A stretch of DNA of 64,000 bases from Liolophura sinensis. Taxonomy: Eukaryota; Mollusca; Polyplacophora; Chitonida; Chitonidae. The stretch lies in NCBI RefSeq assembly GCF_032854445.1, contig NC_088301.1, forward strand, positions 59,968,512-60,032,511. The letters run 5' to 3'. The notes under the pieces are model-generated. The model ran no database searches and was not told where the DNA came from. It was given only the letters and a program-made list of their open reading frames with translations. Below, one piece after another: positions 27,905 to 63,822 of this stretch (position 1 is its first letter; the number at the start of each line of letters is the position of its first letter). Both the position numbers and the translations under genes were made by a program.

Positions 27905-29671
27905 TTAGTTGGAGGTGGTAGATTGAGTGTGGGACATGGCTGTGAGAATTACAAGTAGTTAGTTGGAGACGGTAGATTGAGTGTGGGACATGGCTGTGAA
28001 AATTACAAGTAGTTAGTTGGAGCCGGTAGATTGAGTGTGGGACATGGCTGTGAAAATTACAAGTAGTTAGCTGGAGGTTGTAGATTGAGTGTGGAACATG
28101 GCTGTGAAAATTACAAGTAGTTAGTTGGAGGCGGAAGATTGAGTGTGGGACATGGCTGTGAAAATTACAAGTAGTTAGTTGGAGACGGTAGATTGAGTGT
28201 GGGACATGGCTGTGAAAATTACAAGTAGTTAGTTGGAGACGGTAGATTGAGTGTTGGACATGGCTGTGAAAATTACAAGTAGTTAGTTGGAGACGGTAGA
28301 TTGAGTGGTGGACATGGCTGTGAAAATTACAAGTAGTTAGTTGGAGCCAGTAGATTGAGTGTGGGACATGGCTGTGAAAATTACAAGTAGTTAGTTGGAG
28401 GCGGTAGATTGAGTGTGGGACATGGCTGTGAAAATTACAAGTAGTTAGTTGGAGCCGGTAGATTGAGTGTTGGACATGGCTGTGAAAATTACAAGTAGTT
28501 AGTTGGAGACGGTAGATTGAGTGTTGGACATGGCTGTGAAAATTACAAGTGGTTAGTTGGAGACGGTAGATTGAGTGTTGGACATGGCTGTGAAAATTAC
28601 AAGTAGTTAGTTGGAGACGGTAGATTGAGTATGGAACATGGCTGTGAAAATTACAAGTAGTTAGTTGGAGACGGTAGATTGAGTGTGGGACATGGCTGTG
28701 AAAATTACAAGTAGTTAGTTGGAGGCGGTAGATTGAGTGTGGAACATGGCTGTGAAAATTACAAATAGTTAGTTGGAGATGGTAGATTGAGTATGGAACA
28801 TGGCTGTGAAAATTACAAGTAGTTAGTTGGAGACAGTAGATTGAGTGTGGAACATGGCTGTGAAAATTACAAGTAGTTAGTTGGAGACGGTAGATTGAGT
28901 GTGGGACATGGCTGTGAAAATTACAAGTAGTTAGTTGGAGACGGTAGATTGAGTGGTGGACATGGCTGTGAAAATTACAAGTAGTTAGTTGGAGACGGTA
29001 GATTGAGTATGGAACATGGCTGTGAAAATTACAAGTAGTTAGTTGGAGGCGGTAGATAAGTAGTTAGTTGGAGATGGTAGAATGAGTATGGAACATGGCT
29101 GTGAAAATTACAAGTAGTTAGTTGGAGGCGGTAGATAAGTAGTTAGTTGGAGATGGTAGATTGAGTATGGAACATGGCTGTGAAAATTACAAGTAGTTAG
29201 TTGGAGACAGTAGATTGAGTGTGGAGCAAGGCTGTGAAAATTACAAGTAGTTAGTTGGAGCCAGTAGATTGAGTGTGGGACATGGCTGTGAAAATTACAA
29301 GTAGTTAGTTGGAGGCGGAAGATTGAGTGTGGGACATGGCTGTGAAAATTACAAGTAGTTAGTTGGAGCCGGTAGATTGAGTGGTGGACATGGCTGTGAA
29401 ATTTACAAGTAGTTAGTTGGAGACAGTAGATTGAGTATGGAACATGGCTGTGAAAATTACAAGTAGTTAGTTGGAGGCGGTAGATTGAGTGTGGAGCATG
29501 GCTGTGAAAATTACAAGTAGTTAGTTGGAGACGGTAGATTGAGTGTGGGACATGGCTGTGAAAATTACAAGTAGTTAGTTGGAGACGGTAGATTGAGTAT
29601 GGAGCATGGCTGTGAAAATTACAAGTAGTTAGTTGGAGGCAGTAGATTGAGTGTGGGACATGGCTGTGAAA
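27905..29671. repeat. 54-bp minisatellite, about 33 copies
   Basis: The unit begins gtagattgagtgtgggacat and recurs every 54 bp with few differences: agacgg/aggcgg/agccgg, gtggga/atggaa/gtggtgga. Two units (near 29050 and 29131) are deleted to about 27 bp and both read gtagataagtagttag. Repeated variant types suggest turnover by copying of small blocks. It lies upstream of the first recognised exon of the + strand Shisa gene. Confidence 0.97.
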
Positions 29672-32835: not shown

Positions 32836-33127
32836 GACAACATGAGATTGAATATTGTCCAGGATATGTGGATGAACATGGTCAGTGGAACAATGGGTTT
32901 TATTGCCCTAAGTGGTCATCAAAGCCAAACCAGCAGTATTGCTGTGGCTCCCAGTATAAGCGTCACTGCTGCCCTCCTGGTGAGTCCCCACAAAGGGTCA
33001 CACAGCAGGCCCTAACTACCTCAGCATCCTCAAAAACTACCACAGGAGTTGCAACAAAAGCCTTGACCACACCACTTACCACAGTTAGTGTTACTTCTGT
33101 GGCATTATCTTCACCAATCCTTGAAAA
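32836..33127 (+). CDS. Shisa gene 1, ectodomain exon
   Basis: It enters in phase 1 after ttatttttcag and leaves in phase 2 at gtaagt. It encodes the conserved block from YCPGYVDEHGQWNNGF to QYCCGS and HCCPPGE with all six cysteines, then about 45 residues rich in Thr and Ser, a likely O-glycosylated stalk. The corresponding exon of gene 2 is almost identical through the cysteine block but has a shorter stalk. Confidence 0.9.
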
Positions 33128-36100
33128 GTAAGTACTAATAACAGAATGGTGGAAAATGTTTTTTTTTTAGTGTAACTGGTCTCCATATCTTAACGCCTCT
33201 GAGGTGTAACAAAGTAAGAAGACAATATTGAAATGTTATCAGTACCACAGTGGAAGAAGCAAAAAATTAAAGAAGCATTCTTTATTAAGAAATACAACCC
33301 TATACTTAACAGAAACTTCACATCAACAATATACGGGATAAGTTTATTACAACGATGTTACTCCAGTTTAGATGTAATAGTTATTGCATGATCTCATGAT
33401 CACTGCAGATTATAGTCTTTAAAGGGTGTGTAATGTGGTTAAATATTATTTCATATGATATTTACGCTGGTAAACAAACATTCTGTTTACTGGTTATGTG
33501 GTTCTTGTTTTCAATATATGTAAGTTCAGAAGTCCATTACCTAGAAGTATGCAACTTCCGTATTGCTAGTTTCCATGGCACGGTACACATGGTATGTTAT
33601 CTGGAGAAGTTCATGCCTCCTGGTGGAGAAATATGGCAACCTCTTGGGTGGAAATTGCGGACTGAATCATGGGAAATCTAATTGTAAACGGCTGCTACAA
33701 GAACTGGCCACACCTTGAAAGCGAAACTCTGTATTTAAAAACTATGATTTCGATAATCATGGTTGGTATGCAGTTATAAACCCATTGACTATTTTTATAT
33801 TTGCAAGCAACTCCAAAACAATTACTATCAAAGTCCATTTATAAAACTCTCCATTGTCGTAATTCTTTTAAGTCTATTTCAACACAACCGCGTTTGGAAC
33901 CTGCCATGCATCAGCCATTTCTCAAATGTTAGCAATAGAGAGAAAAAAAGTACATGGCTGAGCAGATACATCATATAAAGTGTTAGAGAGCGAAGAAAAG
34001 TGTAAAGTGCTGTGGAGACTACCTTTATGGAAGTTGCATACTTTTAGGTAGTGGACTTCTGTTAAGACGCATTGTAAACTGCGTGACGTTGTTCCACAAT
34101 ACAGTGTATGGTGACATTATTCTAGACTTCATGCATATGTAGTTTTTTTCCATTAGCGTTTATGACATTCTAATTATATTGTGACATAATGCTGTGGTTG
34201 TAGGTAAACACTGCCAATGATTGGCTCTTGTATGTACACGATATACCGTTTATATTTTTTGAAATAAAGTGGTTAGTCATTTGATAATGATCCCATTGTG
34301 TGGATCGAAAGCTTGTGAAATCTTTTACATAGTGATGCCTTGACTTCATTATTGTTATTGAACCCGTGTAACTTCACGTAAAATCCTTTGTGCATTTTTA
34401 GTAATTTTATACATTTTGAGAAGTTTATTGAACATGAAAGGTAAGTTGCATTATAAGAATAGGTCAGTGAGTTTGCCCGACGCTTGAGCTAGTTTATTGC
34501 ATGAAGATTAGTTCAGCAGTTTTGAATGCTAATTATTAGAGTGTTAGTGAAGTGTCAAAATAACTTGTAATTCCATGAGTAATTAGTACTAAAAATTTGC
34601 AACTGCTATAATTGTTCACCTGACACTTAACACCTTTTTTTTTGTACAAAAAAGGGCAAATATGTTCTAGGATTATAGGTTTATGCATAACAGTTGGTCT
34701 TGTTCCTGACATTCTGGGAGATTGGCACCCACTGATTTAGGGCATTTCTCTAAATCCTTCATGGTCTCACATCTAGCAATTGGCCCAACATGCCAAGCCT
34801 GACAGAAAAATTGCACAGCTAATTTGTTTGATATCTGGTCCCTTTGCAAAGTTTATGACTCCCAAGCCTCCATACTAACCCTGAGACCAGGCTGATGCTT
34901 GTAGAACTGAAGTGGTACGATGATCAGGGTATGATTTCCCTTTATCTCCCAGACTCTTGAAAGTCTCTGTCAGGTTACACCAGGACTCTGTCCCAGAGAT
35001 GGGTCTACAGGAGTGATGCTGGCCGGCTGCTCTCAAGTGCCCAACTGTAAAAAGCACTTGATGCTCACGTGGCAGTGATCACTGGGAGTGCTTCGCAACC
35101 CAGACAACACTACTGCCCCTGTTACTTGCTAGTTCAGTTCCATCTGGACCTCAGATCTCTGGAGTAACCCAATCTATGGCCCATGGGCTGTCTACTCACC
35201 TTAGGTGTGAACAATCAGAGATCAAAGCTAAACAAGAAGTACCTGTGATTTAAGTGCAGCCTTGAGTCAGATTCATATCTCTACTGGCTCACCTCTAGGG
35301 ACAGATTACATGGCTACCTTAGTAACTAGGATGTGATGTGCTGATGAGGTTGTGTGAAAATGGTCAGCTGACACAGGTTAGTGATTACACTGAAGTCAGT
35401 CTCAGATACAGGGGCACATTTGATGACTTCTGGGGACAGATGGATTAATAGGATACTGGTAACTTCAGGAACAAACAAAATAACAGGATTATTAATATCT
35501 TTAATAATGCACCCAGATTTGATGAGAAACAACTGAAATTCTGGCTTTGACCAGATTTTTAGCATTATTTTTTGTCAGATGGCTTAATCTGCACATTGCC
35601 ATGTACAGTATTTGTCTTCCCCGATGTAATTGCCTTTGTGTTACCCTCTGTTGTCAGCATTCCGTTGATCGTGGGGGTGGCTGCAGGAGGAGTTGTTCTA
35701 TTGGTCCTCCTGATTATCATCTGCTGCTGCGTATGTCCATGTTGCCCAATGAGAAAACATGGTCGCGACAAAGGCGTCCCACCTGATGGTAACTATGCAC
35801 CATACTTTGCTGCCAGCTCCTGTTGTGAGACCTGTTCTTGTCAGACCTGCCTCCCTGTGCACTCTGTACAGTGCATTGCAAGTGCTGAGTGGACAGCAAG
35901 GTGCATTGTGCAACAACATGTCACCCTACAAGAGCTGACAACGAACTATGGCGATTGCATCAATTCAGAACTTGGGGAATAAAACCACCATTGTTTTTTG
36001 TTTTTTTTTGATTACCTTTTAAAATAGCTTCCTTAATGTACTTGTCTATTTAATATGTTTGCATTTTATGCAGAAAAAGATTAGTATCTCATTGTGAAGA

Positions 36101-39100
36101 TTTATAAGTTATGTAATAGCCTAGTTGGTGGACATATTACTCATTATGCTTCTGATGAAAAGTATTGTTAGCAAATTAATCAAAACACATAAATATTATC
36201 CATTGGAGACATACATGAAGAAGAGAGTGAAAACAGAATTGACAAGAAGGAGAAATATAGTAAACAGTTTGAACTATTTTGCTTAAAACTGAGTTGAACA
36301 CATCAGCAGATGTTTTCAAAATGATCATCATTTTAAGACTTGATTCAGATTGTCTATGAAATGACATATAAAGAATGTGGTTGTGGTAAAGCATTTATCA
36401 TGGTTGGAACAAATGTATAATAATTGCTATAACTAGACAGAAGAAATGTCTACTGACAAGTTATTTCATGCATGTTTTCATTGCAGACGAGAAATCAGTG
36501 GAAAGAGAAAGAGAGCGGCGGATAAGTGATGTATCAGACATTTCCCTTCAGCGACCTTTGACCCCCAGCTACCGTAGTGAGTCCCCAACAAACCAGGAGA
36601 TGACAGTGATCCCCACCTGTTATACTGATTCGGACACCATGTCTGGCAGCATCCCCCTGTCCAGAACCAAACACTCTCCATATAAAAGTGAGGATTTAAG
36701 CATTGCAGATTTCTCTTACCTACATGTAGTTGTACTACGTATACCATACTGCATTATGCTATTGCTCTTCTCCATTGAATATGTGAAGTATGCAGTGTAT
36801 TGAAAAGGTTTTCTGTACATCGTGTACAAAAAACAAGATTTTAAGGTGGTATTTTTCTGTAAAGAAATGTATTGGATAGATTTTGTGATTTTGGTCAGAC
36901 TGGAGTGATCCTGTCAGTCAGTCCATTTGTCTGTGGACATGATTTTATCAGTGCATCTACTCTCAACCTCCTGCGCCAATTTTGATGAAACTGACCATAC
37001 ATCTTCGCTATCATCTGAACTTCAGGTACTTGCAGTAATGGATTTCCATTTATACAGATTATGGCCATGCAACTCCTGCTAACGTATTGCACTATTTTCC
37101 TTGAAACTTGTGTATCTTGTATATCTGTGCGTATATCTTTTCTAAACATCTACATGCTGGATAATAATGATTTCTATTTTCATTTTCTTTCTTTGGTTTT
37201 GTTGGTGGAAAAGGGGTATTTCAGTTATTAGTGTATACATTTGTTAATGATGATTTACAAAAGGGGTATTTCAGACCTCACATCTTTAGTTATTACTGTG
37301 TACATTTGTTAATGATGATTTACAAAAGGGGTATTTCAGACATCACATCTTTAGTTATTAGTGTGTACATTTGTTAATGATGATTTACAAAAGGGGTATT
37401 TCAGACATCACATCTTTAGTTATTAGTGTGTACATTTGTTAATGATGATTTACAAAAGGGGTATTTCAGACATCACATCTTTAGTTATTACTGTATACAT
37501 TTGTTAATGATGATTTACAAAAGGGGTATTTCAGACATCACATCTTTAGTAATTAGTGTGTACATTTGTTAATGATGATTTACAAAAGGGGTATTTCAGA
37601 CATCACATCTTTAGTTATTAGTGTGTACATTTGTTAATGATGATTTACAAAACGGGTATTTCAGACATCACATCTTTAGTTATTAGTGTGTACATTTGTT
37701 AATGATGATTTACAAAAGGGGTATTTCAGACCTCACATCTTTAGTTATTACTGTGTACATTTGTTAATGATGATTTACAAAAGGGGTATTTCAGACATCA
37801 CATCTTTAGTTATTACTGTGTACATCTGTTAATGATGATTTACAAAAGGGGTATTTCAGACATCACATCTTTAGTTATTACTGTGTACATCTGTTAATGA
37901 TGATTTACAAAAGGGGTATTTCAGACATCACATCTTTAGTTATTAGTGTATACATCTGTTAATGATGATTTACAAAAGGGGTATTTCAGACATCACATCT
38001 TTAGTTATTAGTGTGTACATTTGTTAATGATGATTTACAAAAGGGGTATTTCAGACATCACATCTTTAGTTATTAGTGTGTACATTTGTTAATGATGATT
38101 TACAAAAGGGGTATTTCAGACATCACATCTTTAGTTATTAGTGTGTACATTTGTTAATGATGATTTACAAAAGGGTATTTCAGACATCACATCTTTAGTT
38201 ATTACTGTGTACATTTGTTAATGATGATTTACAAAAGGGGTATTTCAGACCTCACATCTTTAGTTATTAGTGTATACATCTGTTAATGATGATTTACAAA
38301 AGGGGGTATTTCAGACATCACATCTTTAGTTATTACTGTGTACATTTGTTAATGATGATTTACAAAAGGGGTATTTCAGACATCATATCTTTAGTTATTA
38401 GTGTATACATCTGTTAATGATAATTTACAAAAGGGGTATTTCAGACCTCACATCTTTAGTTATTACTGTGTACATTTGTTAACGATGATTTACTAAAGCA
38501 AATGAAATTCCTCTGATGACCACGATAAAAAATATGGCTCTGTGGATTTGAATTAGATCAGGAGGTTCTAGGACAGTTCTAGGAAGTAGCCATGAGTTAA
38601 AAGGCAGTATGCATGTAGCTAACAATGCTTGCCTACCTTTGTAGCAGGTGTGGTGGTGGGAACAGTACCTCCGTATGTCCGTGAGGAACCTCCGGCTTAC
38701 CCCGAGGAAGTAATGGAGACTCTGAAACCCCTGATGTATGGACAGTTGTAAGTACATCAATATCAGTGAGACCACAGGTTCTGTGAAGTGTATAGTGTCC
38801 GTGTGGCTATGAAATTGTTGTGACCATTGACTTAAGTGCTATTTTGATTGATTTTGTTTTCACAATGCCTGTCTTCTTTGAACAAAGAGACAAGGTGTCA
38901 TCAGTATTCATATCTAAATGGATCTTTGAAACTGGGGTAGTTCGTTGTATGTGATTGAATGCCTGTCAAGTGTTATCTGACTATTTGTAATGGTTAACTT
39001 TGGTTTTGCTGTTACAGTTGCTGTGGCCAAAGGAACTGTCCGAAATGCCAGAATATGAGGTGAGTAAACACAGAGTTGTCTCCCATCTGTGTTGGAGCAT

Positions 39101-39593
39101 CCAGGTTTCGATTTCATGCAAGCCCCAGATTCTTTTTTAGTGTTCTCAGAGAATGCATAGTTTGGGGAAAATGTTATCTTACACATTATAAGTCACAATC
39201 TGTATAAAATCAAAGGCTGCATGGATCAGTCATTAGGATAAATTCTTTGTCTCCATGATCTGAAGTTAATTAGTTTTTATGGGAAATGTTCTGTAATTAC
39301 GAAAGAATTTGTCCATTGTGATAGTTCTGTGTTGGTGTTCCTTGTAATTAATGATTATGACTAACAGATATTTATTTCTCACCTCAAGACTACAAGAGGT
39401 GTGTCCTATGGAAGTGGAGATGGACCCACACCAGCACTGTATGACCAGTCCTCTGTCCAACTCTGTGTCCAGTTTGCACAAGCAGAACTATGGCCACCTA
39501 AAGCAGGGTCGTTATGTCCGGCCGCTCACACCTGTGCTCACCCCTCAGGGATATCGTCACTTCCAGATACAGAACCGCAGCAACATAATGTGA
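32836..39593 (+). CDS. Shisa-family transmembrane protein, gene 1 (5' exon missing)
   Basis: Six exons are joined in phase: 32836-33127, 35658-35788, 36487-36687, 38648-38747, 39018-39059 and 39389-39593, giving about 323 residues without the signal-peptide exon. Seen in the product: a six-Cys ectodomain (C-x15-C-x11-CC-x7-CC, about residues 7-48), a Thr/Ser-rich stalk, one membrane helix (about residues 98-122) followed by CCCVCPCC, a charged Arg/Ser-rich cytoplasmic segment, a proline-rich segment with PPAY, a Cys-rich microexon (CCGQRNCPKC) and a tail ending FQIQNRSNIM. Known for the family: Shisa/STMC6 proteins are type I membrane adaptors; their cytoplasmic PY motifs can bind WW domains such as those of Nedd4-type ligases, and different members affect receptor traffic. 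Inferred: a similar adaptor role at the cell surface or in endomembranes. The closest vertebrate subgroup cannot be told from sequence alone. Gene 2 lies downstream in opposite orientation. Confidence 0.85.
33128..35657 (+). other. Shisa gene 1 intron with inserted element
   Basis: The intron runs from a gtaagt donor to a tgttgtcag acceptor. It holds the TIR-flanked element at 33527-34061 and a short hairpin motif near 34290. No further coding is recognised. Confidence 0.7.
33527..34061. mobile_element. Non-autonomous DNA element with about 50-bp inverted ends
   Basis: The left end starts cagaagtccattacctagaa and the right end, reversed, starts cagaagtccactacctaaaa. The two ends pair over about 50 bp with few mismatches, the innermost 30 bp block matching at 28 positions. 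The 535-bp interior has no transposase-like frame, so it looks like a MITE. I cannot see a clear target-site duplication. Confidence 0.7.
35658..35788 (+). CDS. Shisa gene 1, transmembrane exon
   Basis: The 131-nt exon has the same length as its gene 2 counterpart. Its first base completes an Asn codon. It encodes IPLIVGVAAGGVVLLVLLII, then CCCVCPCC and basic residues. The helix has small residues (GVAAGG) near its start, and the cysteine cluster just inside the membrane is a likely palmitoylation site (inferred). It ends in phase 1 at gtaact. Confidence 0.9.
36487..36687 (+). CDS. Shisa gene 1, charged Ser-rich cytoplasmic exon
   Basis: The 201-nt exon follows ttcattgcag and ends before gtgagg. 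The product starts DEKSVERERERRISDVSD and is rich in Ser, Thr, Pro and Arg, with RRISD a plausible basophilic kinase site (inferred). The gene 2 exon (204 nt) shares the DE start and an RRxSDxS motif but is otherwise diverged. Confidence 0.85.
36688..38647 (+). other. Shisa gene 1 intron filled with a 65-bp array
   Basis: About two thirds of this intron is the tandem array at 37205-38495. It ends in TAGCAG, a tandem NAGNAG acceptor. Confidence 0.8.
37205..38495. repeat. 65-bp minisatellite, about 20 copies
   Basis: The unit begins tttacaaaaggggtatttca and recurs every 65 bp with very few differences (cct/cat, gtg/gta, tttg/tctg). The first copy is shortened. Each unit carries an acceptor-like gtatttcag on the coding strand of Shisa gene 1. 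Confidence 0.97.
38648..38747 (+). CDS. Shisa gene 1, PY-motif exon
   Basis: The 100-nt exon enters in phase 1 and leaves in phase 2, as in gene 2. It encodes VVVGTVPPYVREEPPAYPEE and on to MYGQL. It contains VPPY and PPAY; PPxY is the classical ligand of WW domains. The upstream TAGCAG acceptor would allow one extra codon. Confidence 0.9.
39018..39059 (+). CDS. Shisa gene 1, Cys-rich microexon
   Basis: The 42-nt exon lies between gctgttacag and gtgagt. Joined in phase it reads FCCGQRNCPKCQNMR across both junctions, with four cysteines. The phases at both ends match the neighbouring exons exactly, and the related 39-nt exons of gene 2 start with the same FxCC pattern. The cysteines could bind metal or be lipidated (inferred). 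Confidence 0.8.
39389..39593 (+). CDS. Shisa gene 1, C-terminal exon
   Basis: It starts after acctcaag and completes an Arg codon, then reads LQEVCPMEVEMDP, later QGRYVRPLTP and the end HFQIQNRSNIM before TGA. Gene 2 ends in the aligned HVQIQNRYAM with the same EVCP start and QGRY core. The conserved terminal QIQNR suggests a functional tail of unknown role. Confidence 0.88.
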
Positions 39594-41138: not shown

Positions 41139-42824
41139 ATTTGTCATAGTGGATGGTATGTGTTACTTGCATTTTTGAATGTAGGAGAAAAGTGTTTTCC
41201 AGGACTAGAGAGCTACACGATAGTCCCTAGGAAAGAGCACTTATTACCTGTAACCATAATTATACATTGCACAGTTGATGAGGCATTATGCAACACAAGG
41301 ATTTTTACCCCTTCTGTTCATCTTTATATGGCTCATTTTGTATACTGGAAACTGCTTCCTTACTATTGATTGTATTATGTAGTCAGTGGTGTGTTGTCTG
41401 GTAAAGGGTTTGTTCGTGGTTCAGTTTTGAATGATGTGCTATAGAAACTACATTTACTATTTTTATCGCAAGTACATGTGTGTATAATCTTTGTTCAAAT
41501 ATCTTACAGTTTTTGAACAGTTAAGTTTTCTTTTGAAGACTAAAATTTTTCTTGGATTGGTCAGATCTTGCATTTTGGTTGGTGCTCATATAAAACTGTC
41601 TTTTATTATACATCTCAGGAATAAATCTGCCATAATTGACCACAAAATACATAAGGAAATTAAAGGTGCTAATATGTAACAGATGCAGATCTCAAACTTT
41701 TCATCAAACTAATAAATAAATTTGTTCATAGTTCTTTGGCTGAACCAAAGCATGCAGGCAATTTGGTAACAGTGCTTCTTCAGATTTATTTACTGACATA
41801 CCATTAAAGGGCCGAACTTTCATCATAAGGTAGTGACTAAAAATACACAGTAATTTGCAGATTTAACTGCTTAGCAGCGGCACTGTGCAGAAATGATGCA
41901 GATGACTGCTTTCAGACATGTGTGATGAATAAAAGATTAATTTAAATAAAAACCATTTATCATGGCTCCACAGAAAATGTTCTGCGACATGTGAATAAAG
42001 ATTTATGGAACAAAATTCTTCTTGGTTTTGTTTGTATTTATTGCCAATGAATGTTTCTAATCTCGGATATTATATCAGGGTATGAGTACTAGCTCTCCTT
42101 GTTGATACAATGTGATAATTTTCCAACACGAGTCTGATTTCTTTAGATTGCACTACATAAAGCGTGTTTTCCAGATTATCAAACGACAGTCTTATCTTAG
42201 TTCTTAGTCTCCCCTTTATTCACCCAGTACTTGACCATTATTCAGTCTGAGGTTTTGACTCCTATTTCTATGGCAACAAATGTTATCCTACATTCAAAAA
42301 TATGTATACTCCTTGAACATCAACATCAAATTCAGTATATATACCATACGTAGCATTACAGCAGACAGCAACACAGGTTATTCTTAGCCTGAGAAGAGTA
42401 ATATATTAAGATCTGAGAAACATTTCACCTCCAAGAAGGTTATAAAAGTGTATCAGGTCTTTAACAGTATAAGTTATGTGAACTTCAAGTTGATCAAGCA
42501 CACGTTTCAGATTTATCCCCCCTGGTGCTCCTGAAATGTAATGACACAAAGAGCAGAACCCTAGCGTAGGTTACAGGAATGCAATAATTGCCTTTATAAC
42601 AATATAATGTCACAAAGTATTGGCTTGACCCTATGCCATACCACCACTGGTAGCTTCCTCTTTCTCTAAACCATTCAACCACTATATATAGCCTGCCTAA
42701 TGTCATACCCTGAGCATCAGCTTCCAATAACAGTGAAACTAATGTTACTGTAGGGTGCAGGTAAATGTTAAAGGTGATACCTAAGATAGTACTGCATGTA
42801 TCTGCCCAAGTATTGTATATGTAT
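41139..42824. other. Convergent intergenic or 3' UTR sequence
   Basis: No gene is recognised. Several AATAAA motifs on the + strand (about 41711 and 41994) could end a long Shisa gene 1 transcript. Confidence 0.4.
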
Positions 42825-43018: not shown

Positions 43019-45037
43019 TTTTGTATGTATGTATGCTTGAGGATTACTTAATAATTTGTCAGTCATTTTAAAAACTGTAGATTGCTATTTGTGTCAGGAT
43101 TGCTGACTAAGAAATATTGAAAGGTACTTATTGTAAAATTGAAACATAAATAAAGTAATTCGCAGTGCATACATTATTGTTTTTGTGTCATTCATAACAT
43201 TGCAACAGGGAGATACATGCCAGGTGTTTATTCACAGGATAAAGGAAACACCTGTCTAGTCACCTGACAACATCTGACAGTTTAGTTCATGTGCACACCA
43301 ATTGCTAAGATTCAAAGGTATCTCATTTTGGTCATGTACATAGACTAGTCATGAAACACTGTATACATTAGCATAAATTTTTAATAAGGCCTTAGACTTA
43401 GATGTTTAGCATGAATTTATCTAATAATAGACAAATGAAAAGCCTCACCAGTGTCCTCAATGGTGCACATAGACATTAATAAGGCTGTTCGCTGGTATAA
43501 AGTGACTGCTTTCTGTCTGATGAGCATTTAAAAGTTGGATCATTAACTTGATCAGTTTAAGGATTACAACCAATTTTGTTTTACAGTAAACCATCACTTC
43601 CCGCTATCCATCTTGGAAGTGTTGTATTTTACAGTAAAATTAAATGGGTAGTACAACAAAAACTGTCCAAGTCTATTCTGAATTGTTTGTCCTTGTTTGT
43701 TATTTGACGAGTGCAATCTACAGCAAATAGTTCATGACAAAAATTATTTCTTTCCACTAGGAAAGACCCCTTTGTCAAAAACCACTGAGAGAAGATTGCT
43801 CTTTTCAAATAGTTTTAAAATAGTGCAATGTAGGCATCTTTAATAATAAGTTGAGCTCATGTTAAAAACACTGTAGATATGGAAATCATCATCACTGGAT
43901 ATAATGATAAATAAAGAAGACATTATTTTGATAGAAATCATTCTTTCCATTAACTGAACTAAAAACCAAAACTAAATACAGCCACTGAAAAATGCTTTTA
44001 ATTAATATCCATGTACTAAATAAACAGCCAAATCTGTCTCAGCACTAACCCTGAAATACACAGACCTCTACGCATGCAGACACTCTAGATAGCTCATTTA
44101 CATCTGTTTACAATTAACCTGTGTACACAAAAACACAACAGGGTTACTCGAGTATATATGGTGATAAATTAAACAAGTTTTTGCCTGGTGAAATAAAGTC
44201 TATGAGACACTCTCTTGTCTCTTGCACACCATGTTCAGCCGTTAGTGCGCCTATCCATCTCTGACTTGTCTCCCCTTTTTGGCACAGCCCATGGAAACAG
44301 TTTAAGGAAATCCAAATAACCTCTGTAACCTTTTCAAATAGAAGAAAAAGCATCTTCTGCACCAGTTATACAACTTCCATGTGTATGTTATGAGTCCCTT
44401 GAGCGATTAATCCATGACAGCGTGGAGAAGGACATGGTGACAACTTGAGGCACTGGTTCAATGAAAATTGTGACTTCCTGAATTCAAAGGAGCATATGTG
44501 AGAAGATGAAGTCATCATGTCACAAAGTGAGCAATACAAGCAGTACACAACTAAAGAATTTTGACATCTGAAGAGGCTTTAGCTCATCAGTCAAACCACC
44601 ATGGACTCACTCTCACTTTAGCAGGTCAGCATGGCATAGTTTTATAAGTACCGAAGACAATGATCCAACTTTTAAACACTACATGAAGGTTGCACAAAAA
44701 TATCTGTTTTCACACACCCTGTTTTGAATCTAATGAATGATCATTCTGGAACAGGTCTCTTGAGTGCCTAGGATGTTGTACTCTAGACCTACGCATGTGA
44801 AAACATTTTAATACATCTCTATAAAGTGAATAGAAATCTTGCAAAAAATACAGCAAAAAGAGACCTGAAATTTCTTTTCATGGCCATTTGAAAAAAACTG
44901 CATGTACCAAGTGGGTTTGCTGAATATTATCATATTTATATAAACATTAAAAAAGAATAAAAAACAACACTGAAAATTGTATACATCACATACAAGTATT
45001 AAATTACAGGTATAAAGGACAAGAGCTCACATCATGT
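43019..45037. other. Intergenic stretch
   Basis: No gene or defined repeat is recognised. It lies between the two convergent Shisa genes. Confidence 0.45.
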
Positions 45038-46972: not shown

Positions 46973-49900
46973 CTGGAACAAACAGAGAAACAAATTAACA
47001 TAAGTGTGACACGAGACATAACCATCGTGTGACATGAGACATAACCATCAGTGTGACATGAGACATAACCATCAGTGTGACATGAGACATAATCATCAGT
47101 TTGACACAAGACATAACCATCAGTGTGACATGAGACATAATCGTCAGTGTGACATGAGACATAATCATCAGTGTGACAAGAGACATAATCATCAGTTTTA
47201 CACAAGACATAACCATCAGTGTGACATGAGACATAATCATCAGTGTGACATGAGACATAACCATCAGTGTGACAAGAGACATAATCATCAGTTTGACACA
47301 AGACATAATCATCAGTATGACATGAGACATAATCATCAGTGTGACATGAGACATAACCATCGGTGTGACATGAGACATAACCATCAGTGTAACAATACAT
47401 AACCATCAATGTGACATGAGACATAACCATCAATGTGACATGAGACACAACCATCAATGTGACATGAGATAATGTGACATGCACTCTGTGGCCACTGACA
47501 AATCAGAGCTGTCAACTGAGTCTCTCTCACCAGACCACTACCCATTAACCTTAACAAGGTGCAAAGATAAGTTCCCCAGGTTACACCACGTAAAGACAAA
47601 ATCAGTTAAATGATTTGTGTGGGTGAATGATTTAAGCCTGGGTGATTTTATACCAAAAAACTTTGGATACAGTACAACTGTTTTTCTTTATTGCAAGGCT
47701 CAAGAATTAGGGTTTAAAAATTCTTTACTTTTAGTATTGAATAATTTACAACTGCTACAGGTATATGGAACATACACGTGCTAATGTGTCCTTAATGTGC
47801 AATGATGAGAAATGCCTAGATGTGTCTGAATATACAGAAGCATCAAATAAAGACAAATGAAATGACATTGATTTCATTGAAATGTAATATGTAGGAATAA
47901 AGCTGAAGATACATGCGACAGAAACAGATGTACATGTAATAGCAAAATATGAAACTATAATTAACTATCTGCTTACAAACTACATATACAGCTATACAAG
48001 AACCGTAACTAAAGACTATGAAATGACAAGGTGGAGATCATCAAGTAAAATAAAGTTTAACCCATATATAAAAGAATAGTTCTAATTTACTTAATTGCAC
48101 TTTTATAAAAATAACATGGAAATGACAGGTTCACAGGTACACACCTGTAACTATGGTGACCACACCTGTAAAATAAAGTTTAACGCATATATAAAAAATA
48201 GTTCTAATTTACTTAATTACACTTTTATAACAATAACATTGAAATGACAGGCACACAGGTACACACCTGTAACTATGGTGACCACACCTGTTCTGACAGC
48301 ATTGACTGAGGAAATAAAGACAGGTGACACAATTAAGGAGAAGACAGAATGAATGAATGAATGAATGAATAAATGGGGTAAGGACAAAATGGCATTACCT
48401 CCACTATATCGCGGTGGGGAGAGAAGGTAGCATGCTGTTCCAAAATTGTCCTACACAATATGATGTTTATCTCGCATAGATTCTCTACTGAGATGCATAG
48501 CCTATTTTGACATTTAAGGCTTCAGTTACCTTGAAAATGGATGATGAAAATACAAAATTAAATACTACCCTCTTCAAAATTGTACAAATTATGTGATTTG
48601 GAACTACATGTAGCCATGTAATTTATCCATTGAAGCAGTTACAGTGTGTGAGTACGCACAAGGGGAGATAATCATGGCTCAATGCAATTTACTTTCATTT
48701 GATTGGTATTTTATGACATACTCTCATGCTTAATGCTAACATTAAAGTTTATGAAAAAAATTACAGTGAAAATTTAAGACAAATACTGAAAGAAAGGAAA
48801 TTGGTTTGGCAAGCCAAAAATCTTTCTGATTAGTACTAAAATGTTCAACCTTGTCGACCTCTAAAGCACTTTTTCAGTGGAATTTATGAATACAATTATA
48901 ATCAAAATAATGCTAAAATGTTTTGTTTGTGTGACTAAAGATGCAAGTTTTAAAAAATGGGGTAAATTAGTTCTCCACATGCCATAGTTCTCTCAGAATG
49001 TTTCAAAATACTGGTTGCAGAAGGTTGACGAATTAGGGTAAACCTTCACTCAGCATAGAAGGCTTGCAATAATTGAAGTTAAAGGTAAACCAAAGTTTTA
49101 GACAACATAATGAACAACAGAAATGACGGATGAGAGAGTGACAGATAATTACTTAAGTAAGAATTTTACAGAATCTTCACATTTCAGTATGAAGCAGCAG
49201 AGAAGACTGAACAGACACATATGGGCACATGAGGGATAGGCTACCATGGAACACAATTTTATCAGGGAATAACAGTCGTAATAGATAAGGACTTTGTAGA
49301 AATCCAGATACATTTTCCATTTTTTCTCTTGTCATGCACACAGAAAATGAAAGCATAATTGCCAAGAATGAATGATGAATTATGTTAAACAACTTTTAAC
49401 TGAATTCCCTCAGCCTTGAAAACATCCAAATATAGGCAAGAGTCTAGAGATTTAATCACTAGTTTGAGAATGGAAGTGATGTGATACAGACCTGTAACTG
49501 TGATGAACACAGTTTTTCTGGCAGCACTGACTGAGGAATAAAAGCAAACGAAAGAGAGATATAACCTGTGCATTAGCATTAGCATTAGCCAGAGATTGAT
49601 TACAGAATATGTGAACAGCTGATTATTGCTAATAACCAGCATCAGGGCAGTTATGGAAAAATATGAACAAAATGCTCTAAACATCTAATGCTACAGGCAG
49701 AAAAACGAATCATGAACAATGAGGTTAACCCATAGAGCTATCTATGACACAAATTTAATACAGCGGTAAAACTGTCACACTCTGTTTGCCACAGTTGTAT
49801 GGGAAAGCTTCAAAGGCATTATGTGGGGCCTCCGTGGCTCAGTCGGTTAGTCCACTAGCGCAGCATAATCACCAATGCGGTCGCTGTGAGTTCAAGTCCA

Positions 49901-52900
49901 GCTCATGCTGGTTTCCTCTCCAGCCGTAAGTGGGAAGGTCCGCTAGCAACCTGCGGATGGTTGTGGGTTTCCCCCGGGCTCTGCCCAGTTTCCTCCAACC
50001 ATAATGCTGGCCGATGTCGTATAAGTGAAATATTCTTGAGTACGGCGTAAAACACCAATCAAATAAATAAATAAATCAAAGGCATTGTGGGTGCAGCTTT
50101 CAAAATCACAAAACTTTAGTTAAACAATACCAAGTTTTTACACATAGCTGTTCTAAATAGCTACAACAGCCATGTTCAGCTAGACTGTAATGAAACAAAA
50201 TATATCTCAACACTTCTCCCACAAACATAATTTTATAATCAAACTTGGAACCAACAAGCAAATTATATTGTCATAATATTATTGACATATAAAATAATAT
50301 TGACATGTGAAGCCATAATGTATTCCCAGACAAAATCAAACTTTAGCTATAAAGGGAACTAGCCACTGTCACAGGTGAACACTTTGTTAATTGTGTCACC
50401 TGTTCGTATATTACATGTACTATGTACCTAATCATCAGAATGCCTGAAGGTGAGTACTTACAACTGGCTACAGGTGAGCGGTTTAAGTCCCTCGAGGACC
50501 TCAGCAGGATATGGAGGAGGTTCTTCTCTCATATAGGGAGGCACTGTTCCTATAACTATACCTGAAACACAGTAGATCCTGTACAGTTTGACGCACACTA
50601 AAGAGGGGTAACTGTACAGTCTGATGCACACTAAAGGGGGATAACTGTACACTTTGATGCACACTAAAGAGGGGTAACTGTAGAGCATGATGCACACTAA
50701 AGGGGGATAACTCTGTAAGTGCTTCAGCTGAACGCATATGAGATAGTTTGGATTGGTCCAAACGCGTGCAGCTTCTGTTTCAGGCAAAACTCCAGTACAC
50801 CTTGGCAACTATTGAGCTATTTGTCTCTTCTTTCATTTCCCACTGATGACGCTATTTCATGTTGGTAAATTTATTGAATATACAAGTAGGCCTACTGCAT
50901 TATTACTACCGTATACCTTTGGTATTTACTATAATGCAGATTATGTACTTTCTTCCACATGAAGAAGTAGTCTGGTGAATCAAGATGAATGTGATAAATA
51001 TTTACTGTTTACTGTTAACTGTTTGTTATCAAGTGATAAATATTAGAAGTAAAACTTGATATGATGATAAACTTACAAGGATAGGTGATGTTTTGAAACA
51101 CAACTGTGCAGGTGAGTGTCCCCTGCCAAACAATGTGTTCATGTACTCGGCTTTTACAGGTACATGAAGTCATCAGTTAACAACATGATGGAGAAAGGAA
51201 GTTTTCATTTGTGGAGTCATTGTAAGGTAAAATGATTCACAATTCCCAAAGCTATCATGTGAAAGATATGTAATCATTGCGATTGTCAAAATCATTGCCT
51301 ACTAGCCATTTTGTTTTGTGCACATAGCTGAAATCCACCTGAGCCAAACATATCAATGGTTGGAAATAGAAATTGGTAGTACCAGCCATTTAGTTTACAA
51401 TATAATCAGCTTAATATTAATCCATGACACCCTCTCTATAATGTCATCCCACTGTCAAGGTATGAATTCACTCCATTATTTTTAGTTACACACATTTTTG
51501 TCCCGTTTAACAATAGCAAATATCACTATTTGGACATCATTTGTATGACATGTTCATGGATGGAATGCGAGACAGCGCAAATCTCTAAGTTTCCCTACCA
51601 ATTCCCAGCGGGGGACAAAATGGCAGGGATCATACAAATTTTGTTTTTGTTAAAAATACGTGAACTGATGAGATAAGTGTAGTGCTAACCCCTGTAGTTG
51701 TTTTGGCAGGTGTGTGGTCTGCCATCCATCCCCTGCCTGTCGATGACCAGTGGTAGCTGGGTGGTGCCAGGGGGTGGGGGAGACTCTGCCCTGGAGGGTG
51801 TCGATGTGAACTGGGTGTTGACAGAGGTGCGTAATGTGTGCGAGGAAATGTCACTTCGCCGTCGCATGTCCCGACCATCAATGCTGGCTTCATCTATGAG
51901 GGGATAACACAGGTAAAGGTGAGACAGATTTAGCAACATCTACCTGTATTCATATTCACAAATCTTTGATTACTATACTTCTGGCATCATCTCAAAGTAT
52001 TAGAGTGTACACTGTAAGACCTTGGTAGAGTGTAAATCATCTTACATTACTTTGTAACTACTTTTTAACTCTTCTTGACTTTTTTAGTGGGAGTTAATTT
52101 TCTCATGACATTTGCCCTTTATATATGAAGAAACTTTTACAAGTGTTTCATAAGTGTAAAAAAAAATTGTAACTATTTTTATTACTTATTTTTTACCCTA
52201 GCTTTGAGATACATTTCAATACTTCTAGTATCTGAGAGTCACAGATGAGAATTGCTAGAAATAATCTATGCAGATAACTGACAATGTATTTTACCATCAG
52301 AAGGTGGTCGTTTTCGCCCTCGGTTTCTGTTCAGTAAGCAGCATGGACAGAGAAAACAGCACAGCAACATGAATATTATAAACAGCACAACTCCACCAAC
52401 GGCTATTCCCACAACCAACGGAATGCTGCAAATTAGGAAAAATGCATGACATGAGTGTATACATGACATAATAACCTATGTTGCAGGCATCTCAACATAA
52501 AATTCTTTACTGCTAATGTGGTGTTAAGCCATAATCATTCATTCATTCTTTACTGCTACCAGACACACACTACTCTCCCTCTAAAGTGAACATAATGTCA
52601 GCCACTAAAGCTGTATTAATTAAAGTGAAGGGCAGCACCTGACTAATGTTTATGTCCACTGAAAAACTACCATTCAAGGTATCTTAAAGCAGCAGTAAGT
52701 ATTTTTAAACATTTTTTTCAGCCCAGTGAAACTTCATCTTGATACAGCTTCAGCGCATCCCCATTATCGACAGCAAGGTGACATCATGCTTACCCTAGCT
52801 TTCTAAAGCTAAAGTCTAGCTTTCTAAAGCTAGAGTCAAGTTATTTTCTGTACTGTAGTCAAAGCAGTAGCTTATGGCAAATAAAAGTTGTGGACTTCAG

Positions 52901-60575: not shown

Positions 60576-62507
60576 AACCGGACTGTGGAATGTAAAACTG
60601 AAGAATTCAGCGAGTAATGCTATTGCAATAGACATCCCCTACTGGTTTGAGCTGTCAGAATATCAGCCATGTTAAAGTCCAAAGTACCATAGGACCATAA
60701 TTTTGTCAAAAAATTGACGAAATGTATCTGTGAACTTCAGAGAATATTATGGCACTATTTAATTGCTTGACATATTTTGAGTGGGTTTTGGAAACAATGA
60801 CTTCATAACATTTACAAATGTGTACAGATCAAAAGGTATGCACCCTATGTAGTATAAACTGACCTTTATCTGAGGCGCATGCAGGTTAAAGAGATAAACA
60901 AGCAACAGTTGTGAAGGTCAGGTGTGCGCCCCAGGTGTGCCTGCTGCCATGTGATTGTACCGCTAACAATAAGAGCATTACTTGCAAGACTCTTTTTTTC
61001 AAAAAGAAAAACTGTCCCATCATTTCTATTAAGTTACACATTTAAGTCTTTTCATGACCTTCTTTAGATTTCATATGTTTTGATGTCTTTAATTGAAACA
61101 GCAGAGTTTTACATCACTATCTATGATCATACAAGTACTTTTGACAATTTATGTATCTCATGCAGTCAAGAATTACAACCATTTCTTGAAAATGTGTAAA
61201 TATAAGCGTCATGTCTGACATTCATATACCATTCGTAGTCCGTAAAAGGCATTCCAAGTTGATAATCGATTAAATGTAGATCCATTAACACTGACACATT
61301 AAAAACCCCTGTATAATCAACCTTTTTTCAGCCCTCGATTATTTTGGGAGCACTGGGCTTCCATAGCTATCATGTTTAGCATGTTTGCATCTCTGGGTAA
61401 AATGCAGCTGTTCCTCTTCTCTGGGCACATCAATCCTGACTGACCCACCCGCGCGCGCCAGTAACAGTATAGCTGTGGAGAGCCCACTGCATCATAAAGT
61501 GGGTAGACAGACAAATTAGACCCCATAACCCCAAACTAAAGGGCAGTCCAAGAAGCACCTGCCAGAAATTGGTTCTGACAACCTTTGGCACTCAGGAAAA
61601 TGTTTTCAGGATAAGCTTCTTGAAATCCATTTTGAGCAGATTGCATGCACACAAACTGAGGCTGACACACTTCAAACAGCACTCATGGTTAAACACTAAC
61701 AGTTTTTTTGACTGGCTGTAGAAGAGCATCTGATTTAGTCGGCTAGGTGTTGATGGCCACACCTGATCAATCTCAAAACAAACAGCATCAACACCATAAC
61801 ATCACTCATTCAGGCACTACACCCAAAAGCCTTCCCCAAATGAAAGATTCATAAACTTGCCATGTCCACCTTTATACCAACTCTTCCTGGCCAGCTGGCC
61901 AGCCATGGCTCAAAAACCATGTTAATAAGTCAGCTGATACATACATCTTACTGTTGTGCAACAGCAAGGCATGTGCAGATGATCATTCCCGAGATGTTTG
62001 ACACTCAGCTTTATTTGAATGAGAGACTACTCTGTCAGGAGAGGAAAGGTGGAACCCTCTCATTTTGATCACCGAGTGATAATCACAAAGACTTTGACAC
62101 TGTGTGCTTTCACAAGCAGCCCTAGCTCAGGTGTGGAGTTCACAGGTAAATGCAGTGTATATTCATATCCAATAAGGGAGTCCCTCATTCTTATGGTAAC
62201 CCACTTTATCTCCATTGTCCATGTGACATGAAAGTACTGACAAATACCTCTCTCTTAATGCCTACAGTGTAGGCCAACATACACTCACAGACTTCACAAG
62301 TTACACTTGCCTAGTGGTGGCAGTGATATAAAGCAAGCATAGAGTATGAGATACATGTAGTTCCATCAGAAATGATTTGGGTGAAAATAACTGTTTCAAA
62401 AATGTTTTGTAGACAAATAAGGGAAATTTTTATGAAAACATTGATCTGATATCACAATAACACTTGAATATGGTCTGAAACAGACACTATATATTTCAAT
62501 CTTACTT
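60576..62507. other. Non-coding stretch
   Basis: No gene or defined repeat is recognised. Confidence 0.45.
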
Positions 62508-63822
62508 CATTTGGTACTGACTCTGTCACGTCGTTTGGTACTGACAATGTCACGTCATTTGGTACTGACTATGTCACATCATTTGGTACTGACTATGTCA
62601 CGTCATTTGGTACTGACTATGTCACATCATCTGGTACTAATTCACATCATTTGGTACTGACTATGTCACACCATTTGGTACTGACTATGTCACATCATCT
62701 GGTACTAATTCACATCATTTGGTACTGACTATGTCACGTCATTTGGTACTGACTATGTCACATCATTTGGTACTGACTATCTCACATCATTTGGTACTGA
62801 CTATGTCACATCATCTGGTACTAATTCACACCATTTGGTACTGACTATGTCACACCATTTGGTACTGACTATGTCACATCATTTGGTACTGACTATGTCA
62901 CACCATTTGGTATTGACTATGTCACGTCATTTGGTACTGACTATGTCACATCATTTGGTACTGACTATGTCACATCATTTGGTACTGACTGTATCACGTC
63001 ATTTGGTACTGACTATGTCACATCATTTGGTGCTGACTATGTTACGTCATTTGGTAGTGACTATGTCACATCATTTGGTAGTGACTATGTCACATCATTT
63101 GGTACTGACTTTGTCACGTCATTTGGTACTGACTATGTCACATCATTTGGTAGTGACTATGTCACATCATTTGGTACTGACTATGTCACGTCATTTGGTA
63201 CTGACAATGTCACGTCATTTGGTACTGACTGTATCACGTCATTTGGTACTGACTATGTCACATCATTTGGTACTGACAATCTCACATCATTTGGTACTGA
63301 CTATGTCACATCATTTGGTACTGACTATATCAGGTCATTTGGTACTGACTATGTCACACCATTTGGTACTGACTATGTCACGTCATTTGGTACTGACTAT
63401 GTCACATCATTTGGTACTGACTATGTCACACCATTTGGTACTGACTATGTCACGTCATTTGATACTGACTATGTCACATCATTTGGTACTAAATAGGTCA
63501 CGTCATTTGGTACTGACTGTATCACGTCATTTGGTACTGACTATGTCAGGTCATTTGGTACTGACTATGTCAAATCATTTGGTACTGACTTTGTCACGTC
63601 ATTTGGTACTGACTTTGTCATGTCATTTGGTACTGACTATGTCACATCATTTGGTACTGACCATGTCACGTCATTTGGTACTGACTCTGTCACGTCGTTT
63701 GGTACTGACTATGTCACATCATTTGGTACTGACTTTGTCACGTCATTTGGTACTGACCATGTCACGTCATTTGGTACTGGCCATTTCACGTCATTTGGCA
63801 CTGACTTTGTCATATCATTTAG
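62508..63822. repeat. 24-bp minisatellite, about 54 copies
   Basis: The unit catttggtactgactatgtc plus four bases recurs every 24 bp, with variants such as tcacgt/tcacat/ccacac and scattered ctggtactaattcacat units near the left end. As 24 is eight codons, the array gives a 332-codon + strand frame of eight-residue repeats. Such frames are expected from the array and carry no sign of selection. Confidence 0.97.

Follow-up and report, generated by a model that had tools for sequence, protein, structure and literature searches.

The window analysed here, a stretch of 64,000 nt that forms part of a 609-Mb animal genome, contains two convergent Shisa genes. The exons of gene 1 lie on the plus strand at 32836-33127, 35658-35788, 36487-36687, 38648-38747, 39018-39059 and 39389-39593. 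Gene 2, on the minus strand, has a Shisa_N exon (56013-55794), which is the first exon found, a transmembrane exon (52425-52295), a middle exon of the tail (51893-51690), a PY exon with VPPY and PPPY (50561-50462), two microexons named A (49530-49492) and B (48305-48267), and the last coding exon (46972-46753), whose product ends in QIQNRYAM before the stop. The exon lists cover the exons that follow those for the start codon and signal peptide. The assignment to Shisa was supported by matches to Pfam PF13908 (Shisa_N; E = 7.9e-11 for gene 2 and 3e-11 for gene 1), by a match to the Shisa-3 structure 5m0w (E = 2.2e-6) and by the expected architecture, in which the cysteine-rich Shisa_N is followed by one hydrophobic segment in the translation and then by a proline-rich tail with a PY motif. 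PY motifs are present in some Shisa proteins, as reported in PMC10531659. An earlier reading of this DNA, made from the letters alone and referred to below as the sequence-only reading, had spoken of PY motifs in the plural; one standard PPxY was confirmed (PPPY in gene 2, PPAY in gene 1), and the other motif of the preceding exon is VPPY. When the genome was searched with Shisa_N and with the PY exon and the best candidates were scored, two matches were obtained in each case, both inside the window, and no further Shisa gene with a microexon was found in these searches. Invertebrate Shisas are grouped with Shisa5 and number one or two per protostome species according to PMC7653359, and the two genes found here fit that number.

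Tandem repeats were also seen around these genes. A 65-bp array (37223-38498; 19.6 copies at 96%) lies in the gene 1 intron before the PY exon, and its unit contains the acceptor-like GGGGTATTTCAG. A 24-bp array of about 20 copies (46999-47469) stops about 26 nt before the acceptor of the last exon of gene 2. Two long minisatellites (27905-29671 with a 54-bp unit and 62507-63820 with a 24-bp unit) give rise to extended open frames that show no evidence of being genes.

The microexons A and B of gene 2 encode (F)QCCQKNCVHHSY(R) and (F)QCCQNRCGHHSY(R), respectively. Their coordinates, strand, 39-nt length, own splice sites and equal phase were all as the sequence-only reading had claimed; the strictest definition of a microexon is 27-30 nt, which 39 nt exceeds. 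The donor of the PY exon (after 50462) is common to the predicted junctions of both. Joining the PY exon, A and the last exon (from 46972) gives FQCCQKNCVHHSYR, the same arrangement with B gives FQCCQNRCGHHSYR, and the reading frame is kept up to the stop with neither microexon, with A, with B or with A and B together. The introns measure 931 nt (PY exon to A), 1,186 nt (A to B) and 1,294 nt (B to the last exon), and the A-B intron also contains a dispersed repeat (~48839-49041), for which a first look gave 2844 candidates and at least 40 matches were scored elsewhere in the genome. On splice-site matrices made of vertebrate-like frequencies, the acceptor of A scored 9.8 bits (99.4th percentile among all AG of the window) and its donor gtctgt 6.3 bits (96.7th percentile among all GT), and B scored 9.7 bits for its acceptor and 10.1 bits for its donor gtgtgt. 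These values fell inside the range of the other exons of both genes (acceptors 5.4-14.2 bits, donors 4.1-12.1 bits). A second AG is found 4 nt inside A (49530-49524; TCAG is repeated at the acceptor), the use of which would shift the frame, and B is without it owing to a silent change. The two peptides contain the conserved motif CC-x3-C-x-HH with every C, H and Y retained, and differ by three residue changes, K to N, N to R and V to G. The term Cys/His module describes these residues; metal binding or palmitoylation by them is putative.

The possibility that the likeness of A and B is fortuitous was weighed against true duplication. The two microexons showed the features of tandem-duplicated exons: they are adjacent, equal in length (39/39 nt) and phase, and homologous, with 31 of 39 positions identical. 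The next best ungapped match in the window, on both strands, was 24/39 for A and 29/39 for B, the latter being B's own partial tandem repeat. A pattern of 35 places that fits both A and B, with 3 mismatches allowed, was found at only two places in the genome, which were A and B themselves, and the reversed control at none. Five microexon-like stretches, taken as those with the same phase, a length of 12-60 nt and an acceptor and donor of a strength comparable to those of A and B, were obtained on both strands of the window, and three of these were A, B and an 18-nt form of B. The similarity of intron flanks claimed earlier was borne out in ungapped comparison for the nearest 39 nt (18/39 upstream and 19/39 downstream) and was lost in blocks farther out (8-16/39), the likeness dropping to background past about 40 nt. 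The gapped alignment of longer flanks was slightly better than that of shuffles (at 150 nt, 19/500 and 15/500 shuffles were as good), and local alignment found no homologous stretches above shuffles among the three introns.

The identity of the exons was higher than that of the nearest flanks (37/78; binomial P = 4e-5) and the outer flanks (70/234; P = 2e-10), and six of the eight differences fell at third codon positions (P = 0.02), four of them being silent. In gene 1, the neighbouring convergent paralogue, a single microexon M of 42 nt (39018-39059, plus strand) encodes (F)CCGQRNCPKCQNM(R). The alignment of A and B to M proposed earlier stood at the level of position, phase and the CC...NC residues and was weak at the DNA level, where 41/2000 shuffles were as good for A-M and 165/2000 for B-M; the residues of M (QRNC) are nearer to those of A (QKNC) than to those of B (QNRC). 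No second microexon was found in gene 1, and the best other match to M in the window (25/42, at 42265) lies outside this gene. These results together make it practically certain that A and B are a true duplication, and the pattern of differences supports their being two working coding exons from an old tandem duplication. Both are probably used in mRNA. The contrary reading, that one copy is dead or seldom used and the likeness is residual, could lean on the shortness of the selection argument, which has only 39 nt and eight differences to work with, and on the rare C at +3 in the donor of A. It would have to account for an identity of 31/39 in the exons against 18-19/39 next to them and 8-16/39 beyond, for the third-position bias, and for the fact that A and B alike have kept every C, H and Y, an open frame and intact splice sites at all four ends, and we consider it very improbable.

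The sequence-only reading had further described A and B as alternative, possibly mutually exclusive exons. The first part is well supported by sequence in that A and B look like selected, frame-compatible alternatives, and their alternative use is likely. Exclusivity is not enforced: because 39 is divisible by 3 and A and B together stay in frame, and because the 1,186-nt intron between them leaves room for A-to-B splicing, an exclusive choice is not forced, and we put even odds on mostly one or the other being used. The same kept frame, adequate splice sites in both microexons and ample intron would also allow A and B to be constitutive and included together, producing a doubled CC-x3-C-x-HH ... 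CC-x3-C-x-HH module. Against such joint inclusion, gene 1 has a single copy at the equivalent position, and tandem duplicated exons alike in length, phase and sequence are mostly alternatives as reported in PMC3228551, where a survey of the Drosophila X chromosome is given with shared length, phase and sequence features in 90 of 16,180 non-exclusive exons. Joint constitutive inclusion appears improbable.

Exon B is itself partly duplicated. The region 48290-48047 (minus strand) contains a tandem duplication of 122 bp (94% matches, with 115 identical, 6 mismatched and 2 gap columns), in which the second part of B, with its AG|GT, was copied along with the intron following it. The third, partial copy, named C (48145-48165, minus strand), repeats the final 21 nt of B, has an AG acceptor of its own and shows the same donor as B. 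Together, the 18 nt preceding the duplicated AG|GT and the 21 nt of C make up B exactly, at 39 nt, and the 122 nt between them (48166-48287, minus strand) start with GT and end with AG, so that splicing them out would give an unchanged mRNA. Introns can arise by tandem duplication of AGGT segments, and the 122-bp duplication may have given B an mRNA-silent intron, for which 48166-48287 is the newborn candidate.

An exact 17-nt inverted repeat was found between the start of the intron after the PY exon (50403-50387) and the acceptor region of B (48336-48320). The upstream, “docking-like” arm ACAGGTGACACAATTAA (minus strand) lies 59-75 nt past the PY-exon donor and the downstream, “selector-like” arm TTAATTGTGTCACCTGT (minus strand) lies 15-31 nt ahead of B; with one arm after the PY donor and the other before B, their pairing would loop out A. 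For B, the arrangement is that of docking and selector elements, an intron element being complementary (17/17, exact) to an element beside the variant exon. No selector was found for A, since 159/300 shuffles were as good when the 100 nt upstream of A were paired with the start of the PY intron, as against 3/300 for the 100 nt upstream of B. A competing selector for each variant exon is thus not present in the docking and selector sense, and the competitor is the arm of a local hairpin.

The 17-nt helix was found post hoc, in one genome, and not predicted beforehand. In the 2,156-nt stretch from the PY exon to B, an inverted repeat of at least 17 nt appeared in 2/5000 dinucleotide shuffles and, in a separate run, in 0/500. 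Among 320 control windows of 2,156 nt drawn from 200 kb of the same chromosome, 8 contained an exact inverted repeat of at least 17 nt and none had both arms inside the outer 75 nt of the two ends. These 200 kb contained 14 exact inverted repeats of at least 15 nt, 9 of them of at least 17 nt, at 4 of 20 loci; most carried, by eye, words of a dispersed element that is also present in the gene 2 intron at ~50070-49820, and one locus (L011) was a fold-back. The 17-mer occurs in the 609-Mb genome at two exact places, which are the two arms, and at five places with one mismatch, compared with 11 for the reversed control. These counts indicate that it is no dispersed repeat, and by them a dispersed repeat or transposon ends were rejected as its origin.

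Another exact inverted repeat, of 18 nt (43527-43544 / 44659-44676), lies between the genes; both of its exact copies in the genome are its arms, no exon was found tied to either arm, and no function was apparent. This repeat is equally unique, and unique repeats this long therefore arise without a splicing role too. It is one of the points for taking the 17-nt repeat as transposon ends or as chance, the other being that terminal inverted repeats have this appearance. The transposon form of this reading meets the lack of any family (in 609 Mb, two exact places and five with one mismatch) and of a target-site duplication adjoining the arms (by eye), and chance is unlikely but not negligible from the shuffles and control windows. 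Taken as a whole, we place an origin of this kind a little short of even odds.

The behaviour of the arms was predicted by folding, all figures being equilibrium predictions without proteins or kinetics. A local competitor arm GTGTTCACCTGT (50371-50382, minus strand) forms a hairpin with 50403-50393. With its neighbours this hairpin has -15.5 kcal/mol and is modestly stable for its composition (z -1.98; 6/200 shuffles as good), and a hairpin at the B acceptor gave z -1.67 (11/200 shuffles as good, and 54/200 in a longer stretch). In five truncated transcripts ending before the arm of B, the predicted values for the pairs of the local hairpin were 0.5-1.0 each. When the arm of B was included, they fell to 0.01 and the long helix took 0.54-0.99 per pair, with 15/17 pairs at 0.94 or more; the minimum-energy fold of 3.9 kb contained all 17 helix pairs. 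Furthermore, the two arms were mutually best partners among the 36-nt windows of the gene (-26.4 kcal/mol, the next being -19.7 and -20.4) in a scan that excluded the local hairpin partner of the upstream arm. The helix overlies the nearest branch-point-like site of B, TTAAT at -28, the others being at -45 to -74; it might therefore block B instead, so that its effect could have either sign.

The predicted folds suggest how the choice could be timed. As long as only A has been transcribed, the upstream arm would be held in the local hairpin and the PY exon would be free to join A, and with fast splicing A would be joined before the region of B exists. Once the arm of B is transcribed, the 17-bp helix would displace the hairpin, loop out A and bring the PY-exon donor beside the acceptor of B. 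The exchange would swap one 13-residue Cys/His stretch about 20 residues past PPxY, with K-N/V replaced by N-R/G between the conserved C, H and Y. When formed, the 17-bp helix would tip the choice from A towards B, in keeping with the general idea of mutually exclusive use proposed in the sequence-only reading, and looped-out exons are on average less included in human genes as reported in PMC8052449. Judged from the predicted pairing, the helix may form in cells and act in this way; its participation in the choice between A and B is a tentative proposal, with the odds somewhat against it. The fuller version, in which a timed RNA switch picks A or B while B is also being split by the newborn mRNA-silent 122-nt intron, which has an AG|GT word in common with the pairing region, is doubtful. 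The best explanation of the locus is that A and B are old duplicated microexons, kept by selection and used as alternatives, with the choice most likely helped by RNA structure; to this explanation as a whole we assign a probability of roughly 0.45.

Protein regulators could make the choice instead. A and B would then be independent cassette exons under tissue-specific proteins, A being a neural exon of the eMIC/Srrm type and B under other factors, and the long-range helix would have no role. In fly, eMIC exons are described as having UGC near the 3' splice site, a UCUC tract, a strong branch point, an AG exclusion zone and a weak 5' splice site (PMC8797185). In the acceptor region of A, the branch-point-like word CTAAT occurs three times, TCTCTC is present, a TGC lies 16 nt upstream and a stretch of 33 nt is free of AG; the donor of A is the weaker one. 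The four upstream features were found together at 2 of 481 acceptor-like AG sites of the window, A included, under limits chosen after A had been seen: for the AG-free stretch, 35 nt was required at first, which A with 33 fails, and then 30 nt. B and M each showed 2/4. Upstream of B there is neither TGC nor CTAAY, and the (TTCA)n array found there contains YCAY motifs but is a microsatellite. The match to the eMIC domain itself (Pfam SRRM_C) in the genome was weak (E = 0.61 and 20 bits, or 27.5 bits when neighbours are counted, the cut-off being 27), and a control for this search also gave a match, below the cut-off, in 1/14 genomes. Regulation as cassettes has a parallel in mouse, where Shisa6 and Shisa7 each have one alternatively spliced exon in the tail (32 aa and 17 aa, respectively; PMC4733035). 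On balance, this protein-based explanation seems unlikely, though it deserves consideration beside the preferred one of duplicated alternatives aided by RNA structure.

The tail microexons of gene 2 can be compared with several known systems. In mouse, exon 3 of Shisa6/CKAMP52 (32 aa) and exon 4 of Shisa7/CKAMP59 (17 aa) are likewise short, frame-keeping alternative exons of the tail (PMC4733035); as described there, one cassette is in or out, whereas in gene 2 two homologous copies could replace each other, and the likeness to the mouse exons is one of description. As summarised in PMC6071210, in Dscam1 exon 6 the intron that follows the preceding constitutive exon contains an element that pairs with another directly ahead of a variant exon, looping out what lies between, which is the layout predicted for gene 2. 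Unlike Dscam1 exon 6, gene 2 has a selector-like element at B only, its competitor is a local hairpin arm, and the exons are two of 39 nt. The a/a'/a'' model of Ivanov and Pervouchine (PMC6071210) is matched with a at 50403-50387, a' at 50382-50371 and a'' at 48336-48320; applied to gene 2, pairing of a with a' would expose A and pairing of a with a'' would loop A out. In that model, as set out there, a' and a'' are duplicates carried along with the exon, whereas in gene 2 their distances to the exons are 840 and 15 nt, and their likeness is limited to the pairing part. Human U2AF1 exons Ab/3 are also a duplicated pair, one member of which was predicted to be looped out by a long inverted repeat (PMC5224494); the pair is conserved in vertebrates, and mutation of that repeat was without effect according to the same report, and the helix of gene 2 is a prediction. 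The neural eMIC-dependent microexons are short, as A is, and A has the acceptor features described for them in PMC8797185; eMIC dependence of A is putative.

Tandem duplicated alternative exons are a known class that is enriched in transmembrane proteins (PMC9741552). At 13 codons, the A/B pair is under the search default of 15 codons in WebScipio, which is a default and not a biological limit (PMC3228551); this default would skip the pair, and similar pairs may have been missed. No description of duplicated Shisa tail exons was found in the literature on Shisa splicing, exon duplication and molluscs, as judged from titles and the starts of abstracts among the matches listed. The A/B pair is an addition to this known class, and the RNA switch, if real, would be a simple variant. 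The hairpin-versus-helix layout would provide a small system, with two exons and three arms, for relating transcription timing to exon choice, which is usually studied in the large Dscam clusters. If A and B are exchanged, an invertebrate Shisa adaptor would alter its tail beside the WW-binding (PPxY) motif by a swap of 13 residues, and would differ in this from the known Shisa tail variants, which are single cassettes.
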